Part shown: piece after piece, positions 42,419 through 54,178 of the stretch
Layout: each line of letters begins with the position of its first letter
Numbering within the stretch: the first letter of the stretch is position 1
DNA from: an uncultured Dehalococcoidia bacterium
GTDB taxonomy: Bacteria; Chloroflexota; Dehalococcoidia; Lucifugimonadales; UBA3495
Direction of reading: 5' to 3'
Length of the DNA stretch: 64,000 nt
Assembly (NCBI GenBank): GCA_951813535.1
Contig: OX638345.1
Location: 3,278,608-3,342,607, forward strand
The notes under the pieces: generated by a model
What the model saw: only the letters and a program-made list of their open reading frames with translations
What the model was told of the DNA's origin: nothing
Databases searched by the model: none
Position numbers and translations under genes: made by a program

Positions 42419-43444
42419 TTGACCAATTCTCCGTCGACATCCGCCCTGTCGCCCGGCCAGCGCATACGGTTGGCCCGGGAGAACCTGTGTGTCGCCATGG
42501 CGTTCTACGCCGCCTCACACCGGGGATTGATCACGCCAGCGTTCGTGCCGGCCAGCACAGACGTCTACACGAGGGATGGACAGGCGATAGACGCCAGCGT
42601 CCCGTTGGAGATGTCCGACCAGCGCAGCCTGCTCCGGTGCGCCGGCAACCAGGTCCGTGCCGCTTTTGCTTTGTGCGCTTTGCAGACCCAAAGGGAACTG
42701 GACGGAGTTTCCGCAGGCCAACCGCTGGAGGAACCTGACCCCAGCTTGAGAGCCGTGCGGGCCGTTTGCTTCGTTGCCGGGCACAGCCTCGAGCGAGAAT
42801 TGCTGAACCCGACCTGGGTTGTTCCAGTGGAATACCGTCGAGCTTTCGAATGCCCGGCGATGGACCTCACCCTGGACGCATCAAGCTGGAATGGGCGGGA
42901 GGTGCGGTGGGAACACCTGGGCGGGCTGACGTCCTATCTGGACCTGATCCTGTTTGCGTCCTATTGCGTAGATGGTATGCCGGTTCCGGACGCCGCCAGC
43001 ATCGCCAAAGGCGATTACACGGCTCTGCAAAGCATGGCCTCGGCGGGTTCGGGCGCGGCAGCCGATGTGGGACCCGTAGTCCCGGGCTACGGCAGCGGAT
43101 CCGGCCGCCCCCGCCGACCCGGTCCGGCGGCATCCGGACCGGTGCCAGACTCCGGTTGGATTGCGCCGGATGGACCGCCTCAACCGGCGATAACTATAGC
43201 CTCGCAAGCCAGTGAATGCGGGCCGATAGACCATTTCGTCGCTGACGTCTGTGCAACGGGCGCCGAAGCGATGTCCCCGGCCGGCGACTTGTACGCATCG
43301 TACGCCCGCTGGTGCCTGGACCAGGGATATCTGGCACACAGCCAACGAAAGTTCGGCCTCGAGCTGAGGGCTCGCGGATACCAGCGCAAGCGCCGGGGCA
43401 AGGGAAAGCACTGGTGGCTGGGCGTGAGAGCGGCGCAGATTTAG
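42419..43444 (+). CDS. protein with P4-type primase C-terminal domain
   Basis: 341 residues from a TTG at 42419; an ATG at 42497 is the first ATG. The last ~65 residues (DLYASYARWCLDQGYLAHSQRKFGLELRARGYQRKRR then WWLGV) match the winged-helix end of P4/D5-type phage-plasmid primases. The primase and helicase parts are absent. The N-terminal 200 residues form an unknown helical domain, and a Gly/Pro-rich linker (about 205-260) joins the two. It is best described as a single protein with a domesticated phage-type DNA-binding module. Function unknown. Confidence 0.7.
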   Translation: MTNSPSTSALSPGQRIRLARENLCVAMAFYAASHRGLITPAFVPASTDVYTRDGQAIDASVPLEMSDQRSLLRCAGNQVRAAFALCALQTQRELDGVSAGQPLEEPDPSLRAVRAVCFVAGHSLERELLNPTWVVPVEYRRAFECPAMDLTLDASSWNGREVRWEHLGGLTSYLDLILFASYCVDGMPVPDAASIAKGDYTALQSMASAGSGAAADVGPVVPGYGSGSGRPRRPGPAASGPVPDSGWIAPDGPPQPAITIASQASECGPIDHFVADVCATGAEAMSPAGDLYASYARWCLDQGYLAHSQRKFGLELRARGYQRKRRGKGKHWWLGVRAAQI

Positions 43445-44803: not shown

Positions 44804-44833
44804 TTGGCATTGCGGATGCATCCGCGTTAAAAT
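44804..44833 (+). promoter_or_regulatory. promoter with palindromic spacer, tubulin-like gene 1
   Basis: TTGGCA (44804-44809), 18 bases, TAAAAT (44828-44833). The spacer contains GCGGATGCATCCGC at 44812-44825, a perfect 14-bp palindrome between the two RNA polymerase contact boxes, as expected for a repressor or activator site. It lies about 70 bp before the ATG. Confidence 0.6.
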
Positions 44834-44901: not shown

Positions 44902-46275
44902 ATGCCATCGACCTTCGTCAGAGCTCGTAGTCGTAACCATCGCCTGCTCCACACCGCCAAGCGCGGCGTCGTGGGGAGCATTCCGCCGACGCTGGTTGTC
45001 GTCGGCGTGGGCACGGCCGGGGTGCGGCGTTCCATGCTGTTTTCGGAGCGTATGTCCGAGCTGTCTGCCGCCGGCCGCATTCAGACCGCGGTTTACTACG
45101 ACTGCAACGAGGTCACAGTGGCCAACGTGCAGAAGACGCTGCAAAAGTCGTTTGGCGCGGCCCGGACCGGCGCCGGCACGCAGGTGCTGTTTCCAAATTA
45201 CGTTCCGGTGCCCAACGGATTCATGCGCGATCCGACGCGGTTTCGAGACTTCCGGGGACCATTGGAACGGGACATGGACAACATCGTCAGCCAGGTTATG
45301 CTCCATTCAGAGCGCTGCGGGCGTGTGCCGGAGACCATCGTCGAGTTCATGGGATTTTCGGGGCACGCGGTGCTGGGTGGCCTCTTGCATCAAAAGCTGC
45401 TGAACGCGTTCCCTAACACCACCATCCTACCGGTCATGATGCTCCCCAAGGACCACGTAGCTGAGGAGTGGACCAGGCGATATATCTGGGAACAATACGA
45501 AAACCTGCTGTCCGGCTCCAACTGTCTGGTAACCACCCAATCTGATGTCAACGCGCGGGAAGATGACGCCCGTCTGGCTACTGGACTGGCCGGATTCGAG
45601 GTCGCAGAATTCGGGGAAGACAACGATCCCGCAATCAGCCAGTTGGGGGTGACCCTGAGGCGGCTGATGGCTGCTTCGGGTGGCTGGCTCGGGATGGCCG
45701 CGGTGAAACGCAGGATGCCGGTCACGAAAAAATTCGAATGGCTGAATTTTCCGCCCTGGTGGCGTCAGTACGCGGCCGTGGGACCGGACGACGATCTGTC
45801 CTCGTTGTTGGGAAACGCGATTTGGTCGACCTTGGACCCGGCGGCGCAGCTGGCGGAGGGAATCAATCAGCCGCCCAACGCGCCGCAGGAAATAGTCGTC
45901 TCTCTGCCACTGCACGGTGACGAGTTGGAACCGGTGGCTTCGCAAGCAGCAGAGGCGCTCGACCAGAGCAGTATCTTTGACCGGTTTACCAACCTGGACA
46001 TCGCGTTCAATACCGCACGTTTCACCGACGGCATCGAGCCCGATCCGTACATGCACGTTACGAGGATTTATCCCGTGAACGGCGAATTGCAGACCGTTGC
46101 GGAGATTCTGCGTGGCCCGGGGGCTGCGCTTCCCTATGGCGCCGCTGCTATGGCGGAGACGGGTTTCGGATCATATTTCCACGGGCGGGAGGTGGCGTTC
46201 AATCCGGTGCTGCCACCGGCCGGTGACGGTACGGAATTCGAGGATGACGGACAGCAGCATGTCCGATATGTTTAG
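44902..46275 (+). CDS. divergent tubulin/FtsZ-like protein, paralogue 1
   Basis: 457 residues. A first strand-loop, VVVGVGTAG (33-40), is placed like the T1 nucleotide loop of FtsZ; YYDCN (65-69) follows; VEFMGFSGHAVLGG (147-160) sits where FtsZ has its GGGTGTG signature and is followed by a helix and the strand ILPVMMLP. The exact Gly-rich signature is altered, so GTP binding is unproven. No signal or membrane segment is seen. The neighbour at 46525 is a clear paralogue (GTAG, YDCN, and GF.GHA.LGG conserved). No ribosome site is clear before the ATG; a promoter is present. Confidence 0.6.
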   Translation: MPSTFVRARSRNHRLLHTAKRGVVGSIPPTLVVVGVGTAGVRRSMLFSERMSELSAAGRIQTAVYYDCNEVTVANVQKTLQKSFGAARTGAGTQVLFPNYVPVPNGFMRDPTRFRDFRGPLERDMDNIVSQVMLHSERCGRVPETIVEFMGFSGHAVLGGLLHQKLLNAFPNTTILPVMMLPKDHVAEEWTRRYIWEQYENLLSGSNCLVTTQSDVNAREDDARLATGLAGFEVAEFGEDNDPAISQLGVTLRRLMAASGGWLGMAAVKRRMPVTKKFEWLNFPPWWRQYAAVGPDDDLSSLLGNAIWSTLDPAAQLAEGINQPPNAPQEIVVSLPLHGDELEPVASQAAEALDQSSIFDRFTNLDIAFNTARFTDGIEPDPYMHVTRIYPVNGELQTVAEILRGPGAALPYGAAAMAETGFGSYFHGREVAFNPVLPPAGDGTEFEDDGQQHVRYV

Positions 46276-46316
46276 CAAACCTAGCGTTTTTTTGAAATGT
46301 GCGCAACGCATTCGGT

Positions 46317-46345
46317 TTGACGTATTTGTTTTCATCTGGTATAGT
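46317..46345 (+). promoter_or_regulatory. strong sigma70 promoter, tubulin-like gene 2
   Basis: TTGACG (46317-46322), exactly 17 bases, TATAGT (46340-46345). Expected start near 46352 gives an untranslated leader of about 170 bases before the ATG at 46525. Confidence 0.8.
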
Positions 46346-46464
46346 CGCGTCTGTTACTGTCATGGTGTACAACTATGCCGCGCAGATTGGTGTGAATCGC
46401 CCAGTCGCTAGGATGCCCGCAAGCTGTACGTCTGTTAGGTCTACGGTAGTTAGTCTAGGCTAAA

Positions 46465-46513
46465 AAGTACTTTGTCTGGTACTGGGGTAATCCCTCCCAA
46501 ATCAAATAGGGGG
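46465..46513 (+). promoter_or_regulatory. leader with possible RBS-sequestering stems
   Basis: AGTAC at 46466-46470 can pair with GTACT at 46479-46483. Next, CCCTCCC at 46492-46498 can pair either with GGGG at 46484-46487 or with the ribosome-binding GGGGG at 46509-46513. The two pairings exclude each other, so the leader could switch translation. Hand-derived; the stems are short. Confidence 0.35.
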
Positions 46514-46524
46514 TAAACATAACT

Positions 46525-48030
46525 ATGCCGCCGAAAAATCAAAATCGCACATTTCACATTCGCCGCAATACCCCACATAGGCTGGGCACGCAAGGCGACC
46601 TTACTCGGGACGGCACACCACCCCCAATCGTGTCGGTAGCGGTTGGCACCGCTGGCTACAAGCGTAGCTGGAGGTGGGCCAAGCGTATGGGCGAAGCCGG
46701 GGTATTGGACCGCGTGCAGAGCCTCCTGATGTACGACTGCAACCAGGGGACGATCGATTCTATTGATAACGAAACTCGTTCGATGCGCCGCGTTCGCGGT
46801 GGTCAGTTGCCGGTCATAATTCCCGGCTTCCTCCCCAAAGTAGACGGCTTCTTGCGCGACCCCAACGCATACAAGGATTTCTACGGCTTGATCCATCGGG
46901 ACATGGAAAGAATGGTGGACACCGTGGCACGCCGGTCTGAAGAGGTTGGTTCTCCCCCGCAATTGATTTTGGAATGGCTGGGGTTCGGCGGACACGCCAA
47001 ACTGGGCGGCGTCCTGCACGGAATGATGCGCGAGCGTTTCCCGGAAGCCACTTTCCTCCCCATCGTGCTGGTGCCCAGCGAAGCCGTTCTCAAGGAGAAC
47101 ATGCGACGCGAGACCTGGGGCGCGTACGAAGAAACCATCGGTACTCGCGTAGTCCGCAACAGCCGCGGCGTCCAGGAACTGCAACGGCATCCGGCCCTGA
47201 TTACGGACAACAGCCTCTCTCCCAACTTCGAACGGTTGGACGACAAACTGGCAATCGCACTCGCGTCCATGGAAGCCGGCATGCGTTATCAGGTCGACGC
47301 GGGTTCCATGGCGGAAACCGTCACCAGCTTCGGTGATTACTCCAACGGCTGGTTCGGGGTGCGTGTGCTGAACCGGCGCGTCGACATCGCCGACACCCGC
47401 AACGGCTCACGGTTGTTTGGGCCTTTCCGTGGTCGCGAGATCGTGGTCGTCAATGACAACGCCAAACAGTTGCCGTTCGCCATCAAATCGGCAATGTGGG
47501 ACATCATGGATCCCAAGCGCACCGACCTGCAACTGGCGAAACACCCGTTCCCAGAAGGCGACACCGTCATGCGCATGGTCATCACCCTGCCGGTCGAACC
47601 GGCCGGACTGGCCGAAATAGCTGCCGACGTCCAGGACCAGATGCACCGCGAAGATTTCGACGTGGCCTATCCGAACCTCATGTGGTCGTTCGCGTCGTCG
47701 AACTTCCAGCAGTCACCGGATGACCGCCACATGCACGTCTCGCTGTTCTTCCCGATGCAGAACGACAACATTTCGACCATCAGCGACATCATGGGCGAAG
47801 ACAACACCCCCATGCAGTTGGCCGGAACATTGGAATACGCCGGGTTCGGATCGCGCCACTTCATGCCGCCGGTCAACGGCCACGAGGCTGAATCCCAGTA
47901 TGGCTACGTCTCGCGGGGTCAACAGGTTAGGCTCGAACGTGAGCGCACCCGGATGACCACCGATGAGCGCCAGCCTTATGGTTATGGCAACGGTTACGGC
48001 AACGGCGCGGGTGGCGACTACGGCCGCTAA
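46525..48030 (+). CDS. divergent tubulin/FtsZ-like protein, paralogue 2
   Basis: 501 residues. It aligns with the gene before it: IVSVAVGTAGYKRS (35-48), LMYDCN (68-73), LEWLGFGGHAKLGG (149-162), LPIVLVP (178-184), and a later strand pair (RMVITLP) found as EIVVSLP in paralogue 1. The C-terminus adds about 45 residues: a charged stretch then a Tyr/Gly/Asn-rich tail (PYGYGNGYGNG), unlike paralogue 1. By analogy with FtsZ, the tail may bind a partner. It has its own promoter and 170-base leader, and a GC hairpin terminator follows at 48059. Confidence 0.6.
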   Translation: MPPKNQNRTFHIRRNTPHRLGTQGDLTRDGTPPPIVSVAVGTAGYKRSWRWAKRMGEAGVLDRVQSLLMYDCNQGTIDSIDNETRSMRRVRGGQLPVIIPGFLPKVDGFLRDPNAYKDFYGLIHRDMERMVDTVARRSEEVGSPPQLILEWLGFGGHAKLGGVLHGMMRERFPEATFLPIVLVPSEAVLKENMRRETWGAYEETIGTRVVRNSRGVQELQRHPALITDNSLSPNFERLDDKLAIALASMEAGMRYQVDAGSMAETVTSFGDYSNGWFGVRVLNRRVDIADTRNGSRLFGPFRGREIVVVNDNAKQLPFAIKSAMWDIMDPKRTDLQLAKHPFPEGDTVMRMVITLPVEPAGLAEIAADVQDQMHREDFDVAYPNLMWSFASSNFQQSPDDRHMHVSLFFPMQNDNISTISDIMGEDNTPMQLAGTLEYAGFGSRHFMPPVNGHEAESQYGYVSRGQQVRLERERTRMTTDERQPYGYGNGYGNGAGGDYGR

Positions 48031-51789: not shown

Positions 51790-52091
51790 AGTTCTGGCTC
51801 CTCGTGCCAGCCAATAAAATACGCTGCGGAGTATCCCACGCGCATGATGTACCCACGAGCGTCGGGGACTCGTGCTTTCAACCTGTGATCGGCCTTAACA
51901 CTGTCCTCGTCAATTTCGTATTCGCCACTGTACACGTCCACGATCACGTACTTGCCAATGTCCTTTTCGGTCATCAGCGGTCTTATTTTTTGACGGTAAA
52001 TCAGTTTGCCCAACGCCGAGATTTCGACGTCGGTCAAATTCGGTTGGCCCTTGCCCAGATCCATGACCGTGTAAATCTCCTGGTGATACAC
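51786..52091 (-). CDS. small protein paired with aspartic protease
   Basis: 101 residues from a GTG at 52091; an ATG nine codons later, with GGAG upstream, is also possible. The end SVKADHRLKARVPDARGYIMRVGYSAAYFIG resembles the C-terminus of small proteins often encoded next to retropepsin-like proteases. N-terminal half: DVEISALGKLIYRQKIRPLMTEKDIGKYVIVDVYSGEYEID. Function unknown; possibly a specificity or inhibitor partner of the protease. It lies 15 bp after the stop of the E1 alpha gene and overlaps the protease start. Confidence 0.75.
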   Translation of the reverse strand: MYHQEIYTVMDLGKGQPNLTDVEISALGKLIYRQKIRPLMTEKDIGKYVIVDVYSGEYEIDEDSVKADHRLKARVPDARGYIMRVGYSAAYFIGWHEEPEL

Positions 52092-52106
52092 GCCTGGAGC
52101 TGCGCG

Positions 52107-53117
52107 CTACACCGGCATGTTGGCGCCCCGCCGCATCATCTCGACCGGGTAGTCGCCGTACACGTCCTCGTAGATCTCGTGGGGCTCGGGCAGCGGGCTG
52201 GCGTCGGCAAACGCCACCGCCTCTTCCATCAGTACCCGAGCTTCCTCGTCCATCTGATCCAGCTCTTCGGCGGTGATCGCGTTGCCCTGGGCGACCATAT
52301 GGTTGCGGAAGGTGAGCAACGGGTCGCGAGCTCGCCAGTGGTCCTCTTCTTCCTTGGTACGGTAGGTCAGCGGATTGTCGAAAACGGTGTGGCCGTAGTA
52401 ACGATAGGTGCGGGCCTCAAGCAGAGCAGGACCGTTACCGGCGCGGGCGCGGGACACGGCTTCGCCGGCTGCCTCGTACACGGCCAACACGTCCATGCCG
52501 TCAACGTGGAATCCGGGCATATCGTAGGACGCGGCCCGATCCGCGACGTTGGCGACGGAGAGGCCGTACTCCACCGGCGTGGATTCGGCGTAGCCGTTGT
52601 TCTCGCAACAGAAGATCACCGGGAGTTTCCAAACCGAGGCCAGGTTCATGCATTCGTGGAGTACGCCCTGGTTGGCGCCACCGTCACCGAAGAAGGCCAC
52701 GGCGACACGACCGAGCTTCCGAATCTTGGAGGTCAGCGCCGCTCCGACGGCCAGCGGGACGCTCCCGGCCACGATGCCGTTGGTTCCCAGCATGCCCTTG
52801 CTCATGTCGGCGATGTGCATGGAGCCACCCTTGCCCTTGTTGGGCCCGTGGCTGCGACCAAAGAGTTCGGCCATCATCAGCTTGGGGTCCACACCTTTGG
52901 CGATGCAGTGGCCGTGGCCACGATGGGTGCTGCCAATGTAGTCATCGTCGGACAGGTGGGCGCACACTCCGGTCGGGACAGCTTCCTGCCCGACGGAGGA
53001 GTGGACCGACGAGGACATGCCCCGTTGTCCGGTTTCGGGGACGCCACGTTCCTCGAAGTGGCGGATGGTGGTCATGGTTCGGTAAAGTTTCAGCAAGTTG
53101 TCGCGGTCGAGTTCCAT
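52107..53117 (-). CDS. pdhA: TPP-dependent dehydrogenase E1 component, alpha subunit
   Basis: 336 residues from the ATG at 53117 (AAGGAGCG upstream). The TPP motif is AFFGDGGANQG...CCENNGYA. EERGVPETGQRGM at the start and STHRGHGHCIAKGVD are typical of the alpha subunits of pyruvate or acetoin dehydrogenases. The beta subunit lies 700 bp away, beyond two intervening genes. No E2 or E3 genes are in the window. A promoter is at 53215-53242. Confidence 0.94.
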   Translation of the reverse strand: MELDRDNLLKLYRTMTTIRHFEERGVPETGQRGMSSSVHSSVGQEAVPTGVCAHLSDDDYIGSTHRGHGHCIAKGVDPKLMMAELFGRSHGPNKGKGGSMHIADMSKGMLGTNGIVAGSVPLAVGAALTSKIRKLGRVAVAFFGDGGANQGVLHECMNLASVWKLPVIFCCENNGYAESTPVEYGLSVANVADRAASYDMPGFHVDGMDVLAVYEAAGEAVSRARAGNGPALLEARTYRYYGHTVFDNPLTYRTKEEEDHWRARDPLLTFRNHMVAQGNAITAEELDQMDEEARVLMEEAVAFADASPLPEPHEIYEDVYGDYPVEMMRRGANMPV

Positions 53118-53177
53118 GGCAACACGCTCCTTATGACGCCGACGTTTTTCGAAGGACGGCTGACGCGCCGTGTAATA

Positions 53178-53204
53178 AAAGCCGACGGGTGCAGCGCCGG
53201 CTTT
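53178..53204 (-). promoter_or_regulatory. hairpin in pdhA leader
   Basis: AAAGCCG (53178-53184) pairs with CGGCTTT (53198-53204), 7 bp with a 13-base loop, in the untranslated leader between the promoter and pdhA. It might act in attenuation; no U-run follows directly. Confidence 0.35.
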
Positions 53205-53214
53205 GGGATGGCCC

Positions 53215-53242
53215 ATAGTAGCATGGGGCCGGGGAGTGTCAA
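53215..53242 (-). promoter_or_regulatory. sigma70-type promoter for pdhA operon
   Basis: Minus strand: TTGACA (53242-53237), 16 bases, TACTAT (53220-53215). It shares TTGACACTCC and ATGCTA with the citrate synthase promoter at 13131-13160. Confidence 0.7.
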
Positions 53243-53329
53243 CAAGGATCGTCCGCGCACGTTCTTGCGTTCAACGGACCTCTCGCGGGAACTCCCGGTG
53301 GTGAAAACGGAGACCCGTATGAAAACGGA

Positions 53330-54178
53330 TCATCCAACGCGCAGCACGATCTCCGTGCCACTCGCGGCACCCAGGGCTGCTGAGGCATTGCCGTCCACGA
53401 TCACCACCTCCAACCGCCCATGGCTGCCTAACAGCGCCTTCAGGCCGCCTCCAGGCGGGTCGTGGAAAGTCCGCGACAATCCGGATACGTCTCGCCCGGC
53501 GATGCTGACCACCGCATCGGATTCCCTGCCCCACACGCTCATGTCGGCCAATATGTCGGCGGTGATATCGCTGACCAGGTTTCCGAAAGCGTCGGCGAAG
53601 ATGATCTGTCCTCGGACGGCGTTGCCCTCGGGTCGCGGGGCGGTCAACGGCAGCGCGGTGATGGCCGCGGTCGGATCACCGAGAACGTCGGGGGTCACGC
53701 CGGCAGACAGGTGGGCCGCCGTCGGAGCGAAAACGTCGCGGCCGTGAAAGGTGGCGCTGACGGGATGCCGCCAGTACGCGGGGTTGGTCAATCTCCAAGC
53801 GCGGCAACCATCTGGTACCAGCGCCATTCCAGAGGTGTCGGTTACGCCGAAATTGGGATGATATCGCCGGCACACCAGCGTAAGCAGACCGTTGTCCGGC
53901 GCGACGAAGCGGTGGTCGGGGGTCTCCAAGAGAATAGCAGGACGGTCGGTGCCGACGCCCGGGTCGACCACGGCTACAAATATGCTGCCCTCGGGGAAGT
54001 AAGTATGGGAGTCCGCCAGCGCTACGGCGCCATGCCGGACATCCTGCGGGCCAATGCCGTGGGTAAGATCGATGACTGAAGCGTACGGATTGATCGAAAA
54101 AATGACCCCGCGCATCATGCCCACATAGGCATCGGCGAGGCCAAAGTCAGTGGCGAGCACTATGGGCGGAGCGGACAC
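53330..54178 (-). CDS. SAM hydrolase/chlorinase-like (DUF62)
   Basis: 282 residues from a GTG. The family motifs are present: ATDFGLADAYVGMMRG at the start, VDPGVGTDRPAI, APDNGLLT, TFHGRDVFAPTAAHLS, and FGN for the adenosine site (ADAFGNLVSDI). Family members split S-adenosylmethionine with water (SAM hydroxide adenosyltransferase); halide-using members are rare. It is encoded just after secG on the same strand (28 bp), though a functional link is not obvious. Confidence 0.93.
   Translation of the reverse strand: MSAPPIVLATDFGLADAYVGMMRGVIFSINPYASVIDLTHGIGPQDVRHGAVALADSHTYFPEGSIFVAVVDPGVGTDRPAILLETPDHRFVAPDNGLLTLVCRRYHPNFGVTDTSGMALVPDGCRAWRLTNPAYWRHPVSATFHGRDVFAPTAAHLSAGVTPDVLGDPTAAITALPLTAPRPEGNAVRGQIIFADAFGNLVSDITADILADMSVWGRESDAVVSIAGRDVSGLSRTFHDPPGGGLKALLGSHGRLEVVIVDGNASAALGAASGTEIVLRVG

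Follow-up and report, generated by a model that had tools for sequence, protein, structure and literature searches.

What are the two adjacent, related genes between positions 44902 and 48030 of the window, the 64,000-nucleotide stretch of Dehalococcoidia DNA analyzed here? An earlier note, made from the letters of the sequence, took the pair (here genes A and B) for degenerate relatives of tubulin and FtsZ, with an altered glycine-rich signature. For the fold and for the pairing, the tubulin-like reading is supported. A and B are a previously unclassified, strongly diverged tubulin-like pair, far from every known family, and a literature search, mostly outside subscription papers, returned no description of it.

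The genes and the fold of their products

Both open reading frames lie where they had been placed, on the forward strand of a genome that consists of a single 4.38-Mb contig, with a 249-bp spacer from A to B. Their products are full-length paralogues, identical at 130 of 443 positions (29%; E 3e-53). The genes and their putative expression signals are as follows.

44804..44833, +: candidate promoter of A, TTGGCA-18-TAAAAT (similar box in close relatives only)
44902..46275, +: gene A, tubulin-superfamily paralogue of 457 aa, T7 acid absent (open reading frame, paralogy, orthologues)
46317..46345, +: promoter of B, TTGACG-17-TATAGT, extended -10 (kept across ten relatives' loci)
46508..46514, +: ribosome-binding site of B, AGGGGGT (conserved in relatives)
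46525..48030, +: gene B, tubulin-superfamily paralogue of 501 aa, T7 Glu present (open reading frame, AF2 model, fold search, orthologues)

Separate promoters had been proposed for the two genes. For B this holds: upstream of it, the aligned loci keep a TTTGACG / TATAAT box and AGGGGG, the remaining spacer having diverged. The A box is confined to the closest relatives; where kinship is more distant, it is not recognizable and A sits close behind the upstream hydrolase gene.

Do the proteins belong to a known sequence family? Scans of Pfam, NCBIfam, and PHROGs gave no credible match for either, so no unrelated family claims them, and searching the PDB by sequence gave nothing credible. DUF6250 was tried and rejected (E 0.05, below the cut-off, in one stretch only). 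The Pfam Tubulin family, PF00091, matches none of the 24 members at E<=1. Tubulin_2 (PF13809), which the earlier note had put forward for comparison along with FtsZ, CetZ, and BtubA/B, matched nothing encoded anywhere in the genome, even at E<=10. The other profile comparisons were weak but collinear. In local hhalign, profile A1 scored 31.7 (E 0.005) against a profile built jointly from FtsZ, CetZ-like proteins, and tubulin, above all 40 of 40 column shuffles (maximum, 26.6) and above the reversed profile (18.1); positive controls in the same set-up scored 58 (CetZ-like type X against FtsZ) and 62 (tubulin against FtsZ). The tubulin sequences in these comparisons were human. Profile scores to CetZ-like types X and Y of sister genera (described below), with two wrong-strand open reading frames (L132 and L134) left out of the X set, were weak (E 0.11 and 0.026). 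By itself, then, the sequence evidence for tubulin kinship is weak.

The predicted structure says more. The AF2 model of B, computed with 24 relatives and without ligand or dimer, is of moderate confidence (pLDDT 68.9 and pTM 0.71, with core blocks at 86-92); a single-sequence run gave pLDDT 34 and was unusable. Foldseek placed 903 PDB chains at E<=1e-3 (best E, 2.7e-13), and the best 50 of the 903 all belong to the tubulin superfamily, headed by tubulins and a BtubABC chain. With VIA-align, residues 32-460 of the model matched tubulins, gamma-tubulin, BtubA, CetZ1, CetZ2, and AtubB at Z 23-25, with 300-346 residues aligned across both the N- and C-terminal domains, on a scale where the best Z is typically 7-8 for a model without a clear match and up to 14 for helical models. 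In a viral library, phage PhuZ/tubulin-like models matched as well. Structure prediction and fold search, the checks on which the tubulin reading had been made to depend, thus return a tubulin fold over both domains of B. The computed model shows a GTPase and a C-terminal domain of the tubulin superfamily, with helix H6 apparently shortened or missing. A, being a paralogue of B, presumably shares this fold.

A proposed remodeled nucleotide pocket

Residue numbers and element boundaries in tubulin and FtsZ are established knowledge. Their equivalents in A and B rest on the order of secondary structure and on weak profile alignments, and the conservation counts come from an alignment of 24 sequences, among them 12 A proteins, 11 B proteins, and a third paralogue. 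The elements assigned in this way are as follows.

45010..45030, +: A, T1 loop GTAGVRR, residues 37-43 (matches tubulin GQAG)
45097..45111, +: A, T2 loop YDCNE, residues 66-70 (alignment)
45352..45381, +: A, T4 (glycine-loop position) GFSGHAVLGG, residues 151-160 (aligned with FtsZ GMGGGTGTG)
45565..45567, +: A, D222, guanine-contact position of helix H7 (invariant, 24/24)
45649..45651, +: A, V250, catalytic-acid position of T7/H8 (V, A, or S in 12/12 A proteins)
46261..46272, +: A, C-terminal VRY[IFV], preceded by an acidic tail (11/12 A proteins)
46645..46665, +: B, T1 loop GTAGYKR, residues 41-47, G41 and R47 invariant (alignment; tubulin GQAG)
46732..46746, +: B, T2 loop YDCNQ, residues 70-74, Y70, D71, and N73 invariant (alignment; tubulin VDLEP)
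46846..46863, +: B, T3 position GFLRDP, residues 108-113, G108, F109, R111, and P113 invariant (alignment)
46981..47010, +: B, T4 (glycine-loop position) GFGGHAKLGG, residues 153-162 (flanked in the model by strand 147-151 and helix 156-171)
47203..47211, +: B, T6 position TDN, residues 227-229 (alignment; tubulin VDN)
47239..47241, +: B, D239 in helix H7, equivalent to FtsZ D187 and tubulin N228 (invariant, 24/24; profile alignment)
47314..47316, +: B, E264 in T7/H8, equivalent to FtsZ D212 and alpha-tubulin E254 (11/11 B proteins and the third paralogue; profile alignment)

The three motifs first noticed in both proteins, VGTAG, YDCN, and GF.GHA.LGG, turn out to be invariant or nearly invariant columns of the alignment. 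They had been assigned, in this order, to T1, T3, and the GGGTGTG loop of FtsZ. The first and last assignments stand; YDCN follows strand S2 and is T2, the T3 position being a conserved DGFxRDP segment (DGFLRDP, residues 107-113, in B). The glycine-rich signature is indeed altered, GGGTG[ST]G being absent from all 24 sequences. In its place they have GF[GSA]GHxxLG or near variants, mostly GF[SAG]GH[AS]xLG in A, and G156 and H157 of B are invariant. The T6 Asn has become Gln (T-x-Q) in 11 of the 12 A proteins. Helix H7, which starts at about residue 235 of B, leads to T7, where Glu occupies the putative catalytic-acid position in 11/11 B and 0/12 A proteins; this equivalence comes from weak alignment and secondary structure, and the alignment runs without a gap from there to a GW[FL]G anchor 12 residues on. 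Beyond the pocket, there is a basic N-terminal extension of ~30 residues, and the tail of B is rich in Gly and Asn. In the most divergent member of the genus (L055 / L089, genome G318), A has neither the acidic tail nor VRY[IFV].

How might such a pair work? The reading that we favor, at a probability of roughly 55%, is that A and B make up a new, strongly diverged heteromeric filament system of the tubulin superfamily that binds nucleotide and has one hydrolyzing interface type. They would be its two subunits, probably in an alternating A-B filament, and each would hold a guanine nucleotide in a remodeled pocket that keeps T1 GTAG, T2 YDCN, and the H7 acid. Retention of the H7 Asp argues that guanine nucleotide is still bound, and the lost glycine loop suggests a rebuilt phosphate site, as do Arg47, Arg111, and His157 of B, all of them invariant. 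These three residues and their equivalents in A would probably contact the phosphates, with GFGGHxxLG replacing GGGTGTG. Glu264 of B would reach the nucleotide of the longitudinally contacted subunit and lead to its hydrolysis. The T7 of A, having no acid, would not. Hydrolysis and switching would then be limited to one interface type and the other would be silent, the arrangement seen in alpha/beta-tubulin. This split between A and B at T7 strengthens the case for a heteromer. By analogy with FtsZ, the acidic tail of A with its VRY[IFV] may serve to bring in a partner protein or an adaptor to the membrane. Nucleotide use, heteromer, filament, asymmetric hydrolysis, partner, and cellular role are what we infer from these features. 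A tentative extension, at somewhat less than even odds, is that the pair represents an independently evolved, obligate two-subunit tubulin-like filament with an alpha/beta-type division of labor and a phosphate loop rebuilt with Arg and His where GGGTGTG is nearly universal.

Does the pocket still bind nucleotide? Since the canonical phosphate loop is lost from both A and B, binding may be lost too, leaving a pseudo-GTPase pair with the tubulin fold, either a stable heterodimer with a structural or scaffolding role or a filament that needs no nucleotide. The absence of GGGTG[ST]G from every sequence fits this, as does A, which also lacks the T6 Asn and the T7 acid. A dead pocket would be free to drift, however, and the H7 Asp, the T2 Asp and Asn, and the T1 glycines vary little or not at all, with the T7 Glu invariant in B. 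We regard this alternative as unlikely, though a serious one.

Occurrence and inheritance of the pair

The survey of related genomes that the earlier note had called for finds the pairing conserved. The window belongs to a Dehalococcoidia genus of SAR202 type, and A and B occur together in 14/14 genomes sampled from it; none has only A or only B. They are adjacent wherever contigs allow, the non-adjacent cases (G312 and G316) being genes at or near contig ends. Apart from the two sequences described next, profile searches of 250 genomes of the order, 393 of the class, and 400 of the phylum found nothing else of weight (in the class and phylum sets, beyond the pair's own genome, there were two chance-level matches), and homologues were not found in the phages, plasmids, and viral contigs searched.

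Two outlying sequences deserve mention. Within the genus, a lone and very divergent third paralogue without a paired A gene (L042:1303-2721; G315:C33) carries LGFGGHVRLG, SDN, the H7 Asp, and the T7 Glu, with a MutL-like gene a few kilobases off. In a different genus, a contig edge (L129:11548-11889, at the end of G346:C47) holds an N-terminal homologue fragment in which YDYN replaces YDCN; it may reflect transfer, retention, or a binning error, which are indistinguishable here.

The locus keeps its place on the chromosome. Most relatives retain its flanks, an alpha/beta hydrolase gene upstream of the pair and a luciferase-like monooxygenase gene downstream; these neighbors are metabolic, and the operon context gives no clue to function. 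Two nearby forward-strand open reading frames have no Pfam match. One, of 341 aa (42419-43444), is found at this site in the closest relatives only and may have been inserted recently, just outside the conserved block on its upstream side; the other, of 647 aa, lies at 51804-53747.

In the tree, A and B form separate clades (support, 100/99 for A and 90/99 for B), which points to one duplication before the genus spread, with both copies retained. The dN/dS ratios, approximate values given a high dS, are 0.04-0.15 for A and 0.02-0.07 for B, so judged from the coding sequences both genes are under strong purifying selection, B being the slower evolving of the two. What is being preserved? In every genome of the genus, PF00091 matches a single protein, a canonical FtsZ (E about 1e-48; 165 bits). 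With this FtsZ present, A/B would more probably serve cell shape, positioning, or internal organization than septation.

Of course, co-occurrence and adjacency are no proof of a heteromer. A and B could instead be separate homopolymers with different roles, independently expressed, and the conserved promoter of B, its slower evolution, and the lone paralogue in G315 would suit such an arrangement. The complementary T7 states and the lack of any sampled genome of the genus with one gene alone speak against it, and we think it improbable. That A and B are unrelated to tubulin, with an alpha/beta fold that resembles it by chance or through AlphaFold bias, is in keeping with the missing Pfam Tubulin and Tubulin_2 matches, the weak profile comparison, and an alignment of only 24 sequences, but is hardly credible beside a two-domain fold match (Z 23-25, E 1e-13) and a motif order, T1-T2-T4-T6-H7-T7, that fits the secondary structure of the model.

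Relation to known tubulin systems

How does the favored heteromeric filament compare with the systems already described? With FtsZ, A and B share the fold and the order of elements, and D239 and E264 of B fall at the D187 and D212 positions; unlike FtsZ, they have no PF00091 match. Surveys based on the PF00091 sequence profile therefore miss superfamily members such as these. FtsZl1 and FtsZl2 (Tubulin_2, PF13809) are likewise diverged prokaryotic members of the superfamily, of unclear function (PMC2875224). However, the FtsZl families keep GGGTG[ST]G, and FtsZl1 lies in vWA/GTPase operons; neither is true of A/B. If A and B do form a polymer, they would be a gauge of how much change in the GTPase pocket a working polymer tolerates.

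CetZ belongs to the same superfamily (CetZ1 matches the B model at Z 23.3), and CetZ-like proteins, noted earlier in Dehalococcoidia (PMC9871819), occur in the same bacterial family as A/B. They keep GGTGSG or GGGTGAG and match PF00091, whereas A/B have lost the glycine loop. Most sister genera have FtsZ plus one or two such divergent PF00091 proteins (E about 1e-19 to 1e-22). Type X, of about 420 aa, has a TTAGGTGSG loop (L133:6304-7566, L135:5423-6742, L136:5930-7189, and others). Type Y, of about 375 aa and mainly in genus g194, has GLGGGTGAG (L137:6385-7506, L139:5727-6848, and L143:6204-7328) or, in L140:6054-7193, GLAGGTGAG. Several sister-genus genomes carry FtsZ, X, and Y together, and none of the 14 genomes of the window's genus has X or Y. 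It is tempting to suppose that A/B replaced them, but g195 and g192 also lack both. Gene neighborhood, with no neighbors shared, lends no support to orthology of A/B with the sister-genus CetZ-like genes, and descent of A/B from X or Y is at most conceivable.

The closest parallel in gene arrangement is BtubA/BtubB of Prosthecobacter, also two adjacent paralogous bacterial genes with the tubulin fold (Z to the B model, 23.7 and 23.3 for BtubA and 23.0 for BtubABC entry 5o09). Paired bacterial tubulins were previously known from Prosthecobacter, as close kin of eukaryotic tubulin; A/B come from a different phylum. In BtubA/B the loops are canonical and the T7 of each subunit is activating (PMC3232192), unlike A/B, with their lost glycine loop, a T7 acid apparently in B only, and about 14% sequence identity. 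In the division of labor, the likeness is to alpha/beta-tubulin and, by prediction, to Asgard AtubA/B, where one subunit supplies the T7 acid that the active site next to it needs and the other has Lys at T7, which leaves its interface silent (PMC13394414). A/B, too, appear to have the T7 acid in one subunit only, which would put B in the alpha role, and AtubB (9f6t) matches the B model at Z 23.0. They differ from both systems in having no T4 signature, no sequence-level tubulin match, a helix H6 that looks shortened or missing in the model, and a basic N-terminal extension. A/B thus appear to have a hydrolyzing/silent subunit split of their own and, if so, would offer an independent test of why tubulins heterodimerize.
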